Shown here: piece after piece, positions 9,301 through 21,036 of the stretch
Layout: each line of letters starts with the position of its first letter
Position numbering within the stretch: position 1 is the first letter of the stretch
Assembly (NCBI RefSeq): GCF_026151205.1
Contig: NC_087074.1
Location: 2,232,001-2,296,000 of the forward strand
Source: Bolinopsis microptera
Taxonomy: Eukaryota > Ctenophora > Tentaculata > Lobata > Bolinopsidae
DNA length: 64,000 nt
Direction of reading: 5' to 3'
The notes under the pieces: model-generated
Database searches by the model: none
What the model was told of the DNA's origin: nothing
What the model saw: the letters and a program-made list of their open reading frames with translations, nothing else
Translations under genes and position numbers: made by a program

Positions 9301-12300
9301 AGAGGAAGTATTTATATAAAGGAAGTGTGCAAGAGGTGATACTACTACTACTACTACTATGTCGGAACTAAGTCCGATCTACGTCAGATAACCACCTCCA
9401 TATATCCCTGTCCCGCATCAGGGTTCGCAGTTCCTCTTTAGAGTTTGTCCCAACTTCCTTCAGTAACATAGACAAGTGGTACAGAACATAATATAGCCCT
9501 AGATTAGGCATCAGAAAGTATACAACACACAACACAAACAACACACAACACACAAACCACAGTTAGTATAATGATAAATACAGTTCACGAAATCAATACA
9601 ACTCGCTTTACTTATAATATAGTAAGATTATCATTGCCAGGAATATTCTGGCTGATTTCCAAGTTCACCAACCCTGCCCCCCACAGTTTACAACAAGATA
9701 TTCTTTATTTGATTATAACTCAGCTATATTTGTGATGTCGAGCTAAAATTTTGCACCAAATTTGTCCAAGTGTTTTCAAAAACTTGGCCATTGAAGTATC
9801 TGCTAAGTCATTTGGGTTGGACAGATATGGTGTACAGGCCCGTTAACAGCAGTTAAATATGGTACCCAGTTTAAATATCCAGCCTCAATATCCGGTTCCA
9901 TACGGTAGAACCACCCCTCTGCTACTGGTGGATTCTGGTTAATTTTAGCTGCTTTTTAAATGTTAACAATGTAGCCTGATCGACCTTGACAAGTCAAGGT
10001 TTCTTACCAGTACCACCGTTACTTATTTTGTAGTATTTTCATAAAAACCACCTGTTATAATGCTTTTAATGCTAGACACAAGGTCATTAAAATTCGCAAA
10101 ACAAAGCTGTTATATGAAATTACCTTATATATTGTTACATAAGCTAGTATACATAAAATAGGGTAAAATATCAATATAGAATAATACTCACTGTTGATTG
10201 ACAGTGAGACTGAATATCTCAGATTTAAAGTGGATAGTGTGAATCATGTTACCACTCCTGATAGACCAGATATCTACACAGGTAGCGGCAGGTTTAGGGT
10301 TGCTGTTGTCCACTACCAGCACGAAGGGGTGTAAACCTCTCAACTCCTCGCCGTAGTGGCACATCTCAGTGTCCAGATAACAGGCTGTCTTTGCTGGTCC
10401 TGAATTATTTAACGAATAATTAGATTTAGTTCTCAGTTTATTTAGTTCTCTTTTTGAAAAAGTACAAGAGTTGAATTATTTTATCCAGTGCATTTGTGTT
10501 TTGACCCCGAACCCCCCCCCCCCCCCCCCCCCCCGACCCCCCGGCTAGGAATGTCCTTACCTCTACGCTGAGAGAAGACCTCGTACGCCAGCCCAGTAAT
10601 AGGAACTAGCCAGCACTGCACCCCAGTTACATAGCCAATAAAGAGAATAATAGAACCATCCTTTAGCTCCTGAGTGGACTGCCACAACACTAACTCTTTC
10701 TCCTCCGACTTAGGGGACGTCTGGGGAGGAGGCGTGATTAGACCATTATGTAATTTGATGACGTAATTAGACCATTATGTAATTTGTTGACGTAATTAAG
10801 TTAATAATGGGAGACTTATTAGCGAATAACATTTCGTGATATGATTTTTTATTGAAATCTTTCATTATATCAATCAATTAAATATGAATATTAGGAATTT
10901 TCAGAATTTTAAGAAGTCCCCAACTACATAACTGTTATACAGGGAAAAGTGGAAAGCCTTAATAATACGAGAAAACACAATATTAAGCATATTATTAAAT
11001 ATGTCATTTGCTGCAATATTACATTATTTTATTCTTTGTAATTTTCAATAACCCTGTCTAGTCAAATTTGACTACTGATTATATAATTACATATTGGTTT
11101 ACCTGAGGAGCAACCACCTCGTGGATGTAATCAACAACGCTCTCGATGTACGATCTTTCTCTGTGGGAATGAAAATGTTAAAACAAGTTACCTTATCTTA
11201 CTTCAGAGGGTCTAACAGTAGCCTAATTTAGTTAAATACTATAAACTCACGCTACTTTAGTGGGTCTAACAGTATAAGTAGCCTAATTTAGTTAAATACT
11301 ATAAACTCACGCTACTTTAGAGGGTCTAACAGTAGCCTAATTTAGTTAAATACTATAAACTCACGCTACTTTAGTGGGTCTAACAGTATAAGTAGCCTAA
11401 TTTAGTTAAATACTATAAACTCACGCTACTTTAGAGGGTCTAACAGTAGCCTAATTTAGTTAAATACTATAAACTCAGGCTACTTTAGAGGGTCTAACAG
11501 TAGCCTAATTTAGTTAAATACTATAAACTCACGCTACTTTAGAGGGTCTAACAGTAGCCTAATTTAGTTAAATACTATAAACTCACGCTACTTTAGAGGG
11601 TCTAACAGTAGCCTAATTTAGTTAAATACCATAAACTCACGCTACTTAAGAGGGTCTAACAGTAGCCTAATTTAGTTAAATACTATAAACTCACGCTACT
11701 TTAGAGGGTCTAACAGTAGCCTAATTTAGTTAAATACTATAAACTCACGCTACTTTAGAGGGTCTAACAGTAGCCTAATTTAGTTAAATACTATAAACTC
11801 ACGCTACTTTAGAGGGTCTAACAGTAGCCTAATTTAGTTAAATACTATAAACTCACGCTACTTTAGAGGGTCTAACAGTAGCCTAATTTAGTTAAATACT
11901 ATAAACTCACGCTACTTTAGAGGGTCTAACAGTAGCCTAATTTAGTTAAATACTATAAACACACGCTACTTTAGAGGGTCTAACAGTAGCCTAATTTAGT
12001 TAAATACTATAAACACACACTACTTTAGAGGGTCTAACAGTAGCCTAATTTAGTTAAATACTATGAACTCACGCTACTTTAGAGGGTCTAACAGTAGCCT
12101 AATTTAGTTAAATACTATAAACTCACGCTACTTTAGAGGGTCTAACAGTAGCCTAATTTAGTTAAATACTATAAACTCACGCTACTTTAGAGGGTCTAAC
12201 AGTAGCCTAATTTAGTTAAATACTATAAACTCACGCTACTTTAGAGGGTCTAACAGTAGCCTAATTTAGTTAAATACTATAAACTCACGCTACTTAAGAG

Positions 12301-21036: not shown

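Follow-up and report, generated by a model that had tools for sequence, protein, structure and literature searches.

The region studied here is a 64,000-nucleotide stretch of the Bolinopsis microptera genome (referred to below as the window), corresponding to positions 2232001 to 2296000 of contig C3 in a 264.65-Mb assembly. Its minus strand carries the gene for P0121, an annotated protein named "BCAS3 microtubule associated cell migration factor-like [Bolinopsis microptera]". This protein maps exactly, with coding exon 1 at 21036-20981 (ATG at 21036), a 9,820-bp intron 1 opening with the donor at 20980, exon 2 at 11160-11103, and 16 introns overall. The earlier note on this DNA had allowed that exon 1 might lie outside the mRNA, or that transcripts might start downstream of the repeat array of intron 1, in exon 2; the predicted gene structure argues otherwise on both counts, as P0121 includes exon 1 and joins it to exon 2, and the alignment with P0122, a 64% identical relative, runs through the exon 1 part at the N-terminus. 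The 90%-identity cluster of P0121 includes a member from the source "lgn", which we take to consist of assembled public reads, and this suggests transcripts; P0122 stems from a source of the same kind, whose longest contig is 2,724 bp. The gene directly upstream of BCAS3, on the same strand, is DIS3L2-like and 89% identical to a Mnemiopsis leidyi protein. The two genes are separated by about 400 bp (window 21037-21445), an operon-like layout, and upstream of the BCAS3 ATG there is a 3' splice site of fair quality, whose first base is 21329 and whose score of 5.77 bits exceeds that of 32% of the real acceptors. Spliced leaders are described as common in ctenophores in the available part of one report (PMC8527503). 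A search of Rfam at gathering scores gave no match within the window.

Nearly the whole of intron 1 is occupied by a tandem array which begins within coding exon 1 (TRF: window 11199-21006, period 54). When the minus strand, the strand of BCAS3, was divided by fuzzy matching, this yielded 174 units between 20991 and 11197 (54 nt in 161, 60 nt in 7, and other lengths in 6), in good agreement with the approximately 175 reported in the earlier note, which was also right about the gene, the transcribed strand, and the composition of the unit. Each unit consists of the 26 bp that end exon 1, where the first exonic copy is the last 26 bp of the exon itself, and of the 28 bp that start intron 1, including GTGAGT. 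Exact copies on the minus strand of the array span numbered 83 for the whole unit, 114 for the 26-mer, 160 for GTGAGT, 159 for AGTAGCGTGAGT, 155 for TTTAACTAAATTAG, and 159 for AGTAGC/GTGAGT; over this interval, the plus strand had 0 copies each of the whole unit, the 26-mer, GTGAGT, AGTAGCGTGAGT and TTTAACTAAATTAG. The unit junction reads GC/GT; AGGT, the signature of a dual-specific (AG/GT) array, is absent from the intron 1 unit junction. When a two-unit query was searched against the 264.65-Mb assembly, within stated limits for repeats, 80 of 80 matches fell inside the BCAS3 array locus, and hence these 80 matches gave no sign of the copies elsewhere that an introner or transposon family would have left. 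The series of units is interrupted by a gap of 334 bp (19247-19580, minus strand) made up of a MITE-like element with terminal inverted repeats, of which the assembly holds at least 40 further copies of at least 250 bp (86-96% identity), a lower bound given that 40 of the 53 first candidates were scored.

The units are strongly alike. Those of 54 nt differ from their consensus by 1.3% on average, with 29 distinct sequences among the 161, and adjacent units are slightly more similar to each other than distant ones (1.17 differences at lag 1 versus 1.51 at lag 40). GTGAGT is intact in 160 of the 174 units, which places it 31st among the 54 circular hexamers of the unit (mean, 161.3); the donor hexamer is thus no better preserved than the other parts of the unit, as opposed to what is expected of a selected array. 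This pattern fits local homogenisation, with a donor under no constraint. In isolation, the exonic 26-mer folds into a hairpin with 11 pairs and one bulge (z of -3.9 as DNA and -3.3 as RNA; -9.0 kcal/mol as RNA), which is a plausible seed for slippage.

The strength of the repeated sites was estimated with small donor and acceptor matrices built from the 37 introns mapped in three genes, using leave-one-out scoring. The true intron 1 donor, which the earlier note had called strong, reached 3.77 bits over its full length, against a median of 7.05, with only 4 of the 36 other donors being weaker; its U1 hexamer is good and its exonic side is poor. The decoy donor scored 3.09 bits (3 of 37 weaker), and 21.3% of all GTs in the region were as good. 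The decoys are identical to the true donor from -3 to +6 and differ at +8 (C in the true site, T in the decoys). The ambiguity between donors that had been anticipated is borne out. As for the AG that was thought, together with a branch-like motif, to create decoy microexons of 26 nt, the best one on the sense strand of the unit scored only 1.09 bits (median of real acceptors, 8.44; 1 of 37 weaker), a value that 18.6% of the region's AGs attain. Judged by this score, no competent acceptor precedes the 26-mer, so that such microexons are unlikely. The note was also correct in predicting a frame shift upon insertion of 26 nt. In silico, reading past the true donor gives VA* immediately, through an in-frame TGA, so that the use of any inner donor would be non-productive, and the addition of one, two or three 26-nt pieces also gives stops.

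The window was joined with 200 kb of its neighbourhood into a stretch of 264 kb, 22.4% of which is covered by TRF arrays (period of at least 10, at least 3 copies); for Hormiphora californensis, the available part of PMC8527503 gives 13% of the genome in TRF repeats. With a purpose-written spliced aligner, we used 37 introns, 16 from BCAS3, 7 from a kelch gene (mapped with protein P0243) and 14 from a kinase gene, for which two mapping runs disagree before position 159744 of the joined stretch; the run with one 587-bp intron was used and the part upstream was left out. Fifteen arrays with a period of at least 20 and at least 3 copies were considered, and an array was taken as edge-spanning when it extended 5 nt or more into an exon. 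In these 37 introns of three genes, 8 of the 15 arrays overrun an exon edge, six of them in BCAS3, and 7 do not.

Aside from the 5' edge of intron 1, the BCAS3 arrays of this kind, which lie on the minus strand within the window unless stated, are found (i) at the 3' edge of intron 4, with a 69-bp unit (8145-9233, including 9 bp of exon 5 at 8006-8153), where acceptors are repeated, (ii) at the 3' edge of intron 7, with a 68-bp unit (6510-6920, including 53 bp of exon 8 at 6402-6562), (iii) at the 5' edge of intron 12, with a 63-bp unit (3519-4795, including 9 bp of exon 12 at 4787-4975), (iv) at the 5' edge of intron 13, with a unit of about 60 bp (451-1268, including 20 bp of exon 13), and (v) at the 5' edge of intron 16, where a 22-bp unit in 163 copies, located outside the window (C3:2227951-2231529; L027:5951-9529), repeats CAG/GTGAGA, an AG/GT junction which might theoretically act as both donor and acceptor. 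The other two are a 34-bp array of 53 copies at the 5' edge of kelch intron 4 (C3:2346123-2347944; L014:123-1944), 30 bp of whose unit are exonic, and a 44-bp array of 97 copies at the 3' edge of a kinase intron (C3:2373745-2378018; L016:7745-10000 and L017:1-2018), which repeats the acceptor and 24 bp of the next exon. Two low-copy edge arrays stand outside the 15, one at the 3' edge of BCAS3 intron 12 (272-bp unit, 2.9 copies, 1397-2172, minus strand, including 59 bp of exon 13 at 1249-1455) and one at the 5' edge of a kinase intron (2.0 copies). A 64-bp array at 2461-2736, one of the 15 and classed as not edge-spanning, resembles the adjoining 63-bp edge array of intron 12. Another kind of overrun was seen in a coiled-coil gene, whose coding sequence (44626-46113, minus strand) is intronless and therefore absent from the intron set: a 55-bp array of 75 copies (window 40528-44659) overruns its last 34 bp and repeats the coding end and the stop, not a splice site. 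One kinase-gene intron is filled by a 14.9-kb array of the degenerate 7-mer TAGTTAC (C3:2382655-2397556, in parts of L017-L019).

Overall, the ten edges of the three genes carry 405 GT and 120 AG decoys (at most 2 mismatches to the true junction), and one added unit would cause a frame shift or a stop at all ten. Scored with small matrices that include the true sites, the decoys that equalled or exceeded the true site amounted in BCAS3 to 1/165 at intron 1, 1/15 at intron 4, 3/5 at intron 7, 2/17 and 0/5 at the two edges of intron 12, 13/13 at intron 13, and 156/158 at intron 16, and in the other genes to 34/51 at kelch intron 4 and to 48/95 and 1/1 at the two kinase edges. As these ratios differ by edge, sequence alone could help at some edges and not at others. 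At each edge, the mapped proteins use the outermost site, which is the first one in the case of donors and the last one in the case of acceptors. The share of intron sequence lying in arrays and in edge-spanning arrays (at least 3 copies) was 77% and 73% in BCAS3, 28% and 11% in the kelch gene, and 79% and 16% in the kinase gene, respectively.

The apparent over-representation of exon edges hinges on the ancestral intron length that is assumed. Taking the present length minus the arrays, 2.55 of the 15 arrays are expected to be edge-spanning, as compared with the 8 observed (P = 2.5e-4), and without BCAS3 the figures are 0.6 expected and 2 of 8 observed (P = 0.10). With ancestral lengths fixed at 100, 150, 183, 250, 400 and 800 bp, the P values were 0.47, 0.12, 0.05, 0.010, 0.0007 and 5e-6, respectively; introns without an array of at least 100 bp have a median length of 183.5 bp (n = 20). 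In an annotation-free test of 20 arrays outside the three genes, a strong donor motif (p < 0.1) was found in 3 and a strong acceptor motif (p < 0.1) in 0, which is no excess, and the same test on the arrays inside the three genes gave 4/15 for donors and 2/15 for acceptors. The junction-spanning kind of array thus recurs, a preference for edges is not established by these tests, and BCAS3, chosen by the finding itself, gives most of the signal.

Since its units match the exon 1-intron 1 junction and it starts in exon 1, the intron 1 array can be regarded as a junction-spanning minisatellite, and we consider it probable that it is a neutral one whose decoys are passed over by virtue of position or exon definition. 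A 54-bp segment, 26 bp from the end of exon 1 and 28 bp from the start of intron 1, would have been duplicated in tandem, and would subsequently have expanded into the intron and been homogenised. Such growth would leave the mature mRNA unchanged provided that splicing uses the outermost donor, which adjoins the real exon, as it does in the annotated protein; use of an inner donor would lead straight into the in-frame TGA. The inner copies would most likely be passed over because donors are recognised jointly with the exon that precedes them and the 26-nt pseudo-exons are devoid of a competent acceptor; alternatively, the true donor could be preferred because it is transcribed first. Rare use of inner donors would yield transcripts prone to nonsense-mediated decay, and copy number might in this way slightly lower BCAS3 output. 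The arrays at the other 5' and 3' edges of BCAS3 and of the two other genes probably have the same origin. At some of these edges the decoys equal the true site, so that position or context must decide there, with recognition across the real exon as the likeliest selecting factor, and at introns 4 and 12, where the decoys fall mostly below the true site, sequence may help. The best partner site of an edge unit outscores no more than 11% of the real partner sites in 6 of the 9 units, and it is moderate in the other 3. Compared with random segments, the edge units showed no depletion of partner sites (mean rank 0.61, n = 9), and a filter through exon definition would consequently be a passive one. 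A wider generalisation, which we advance only tentatively, is that exon edges in the Bolinopsis microptera genome are recurrent starting points of minisatellites, which make introns longer and fill pre-mRNAs with copies of the true splice sites; among these, the spliceosome would have to choose largely by position, always taking the outermost pair.

Several other readings were weighed against that of a neutral minisatellite. The array might act as a copy-number rheostat, with longer arrays leading to more use of inner donors and thereby to nonsense transcripts that tune the level of BCAS3. The sequence from -3 to +6 common to the decoys and the true donor, and the immediate stop upon any inner-donor use, are in line with this, and a paper cited in PMC2630376 links, by its title, the VNTR of the human CBS gene with reduced CBS activity; the donor, however, is no more conserved than its surroundings within the unit, and we regard a rheostat as rather unlikely. 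A decidedly unlikely possibility is that RNA structure discriminates, inner donors being held in repeat hairpins and the exon 1 leader keeping the true donor more open. The 26-mer does form a hairpin when isolated, but it folds otherwise in the 84-nt context of exon 1. A first folding pass of donor opening used 26 decoys. In six folding windows with 16 sampled decoys, the cost of opening the true donor and the mean cost for the decoys were 3.3 and 10.1 kcal/mol (flanks of 40/20), 8.0 and 10.5 (60/40), 3.3 and 9.1 (80/60), 3.8 and 9.9 (100/60), 9.2 and 9.9 (150/100), and 7.4 and 9.7 (200/120). The true donor was thus cheaper to open in all six, by 0.7 to 6.8 kcal/mol, although in 5 of them its value was not below that of the lowest decoy. 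Shuffled leaders opened the true donor as well in 3, 13, 2, 3, 24 and 13 of 40 cases, in the same order, that is in at most 3 of 40 in three windows, whereas 13 to 24 did so in the other three. These models suggest, at best, that folding could give the true donor an advantage in some windows.

The earlier note had further suggested that the array recruits U1 to protect the long intron from premature polyadenylation. The 160 copies of GTGAGT on the sense strand would suit a selected U1-binding array of this type, yet intron 1 contains, on its sense strand, only 3 AATAAA and 0 ATTAAA instead of many poly(A) signals, which leaves such protection with little to act on; in addition, the array itself makes up almost all the length to be shielded, and its donor lacks conservation, which renders this explanation extremely improbable. 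Tandem arrays are hard to assemble, and only one assembly was available, so that the array could conceivably be far shorter in the animal, or absent. The scattered variants among the units, the 7 insertions of six bases, which are spread over different positions, and the one inserted element all speak against such an artefact, which we hold to be very improbable.

Known VNTRs include that of TPO intron 10 and that of CBS, whose inner donors are reportedly used, with an effect on expression. The human CBS VNTR, a 31-bp repeat designated c.1444_1467+7(16_21) in the available part of PMC2630376, resembles the array of BCAS3 intron 1 in that the unit straddles an exon-intron boundary and the 5' splice site is hence repeated. 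Going by the same variant name (PMC2630376), its unit has 24 exonic and 7 intronic bases, as compared with 26 and 28 in BCAS3, and it is present in 16-21 copies as compared with 174, an eight- to elevenfold difference. Unlike CBS, BCAS3 has several such arrays, at both 5' and 3' edges. The polyubiquitin gene UBC is described, in the portion of PMC10809524 available, as a tandem array of dual-specific AGGT splice sites, acting as donor and acceptor between coding repeats. Splice sites are likewise repeated in tandem in BCAS3, but the intron 1 junction is GC/GT and its copies are intronic; intron 16, with CAG/GTGAGA and 158 decoy GT copies, comes nearer to the UBC motif (PMC10809524). Intronic minisatellites and satellite-filled introns (PMC4039745, PMC6508621) share with BCAS3 an intron that holds tandem repeats, and differ, as far as the openings of their abstracts tell, in that the BCAS3 unit contains an exon end and a splice site. 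We found no description of edge-spanning arrays in ctenophores in the open-licence literature, parts of which were available, and this proves little; "tandem" and "minisatellite" were absent from the available part of a study of ctenophore chromatin data (PMC12221973), and in PMC4329672 VNTR appears only in a reference. Relative to known junction VNTRs, the BCAS3 case would stand out by its extreme copy number, by involving both types of edge, and by occurring several times in one gene.

Because the decoys of intron 1 equal the true donor from -3 to +6, the locus represents a natural experiment on splice-site choice, in which site strength hardly separates decoys from the true site and position, exon context or transcription order must do so. 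Many tests of this sort, for donors as well as acceptors, may be available in this genome, provided that the remaining edge arrays behave in the same way. The arrangement also suggests how introns could grow harmlessly, since duplicating a segment across an exon edge keeps one good copy in the outermost place; nothing in this analysis shows a function for the arrays. Elsewhere in the window, a row of several similar open frames (50527-63569) corresponds to a family of secreted-looking, cysteine-containing proteins.
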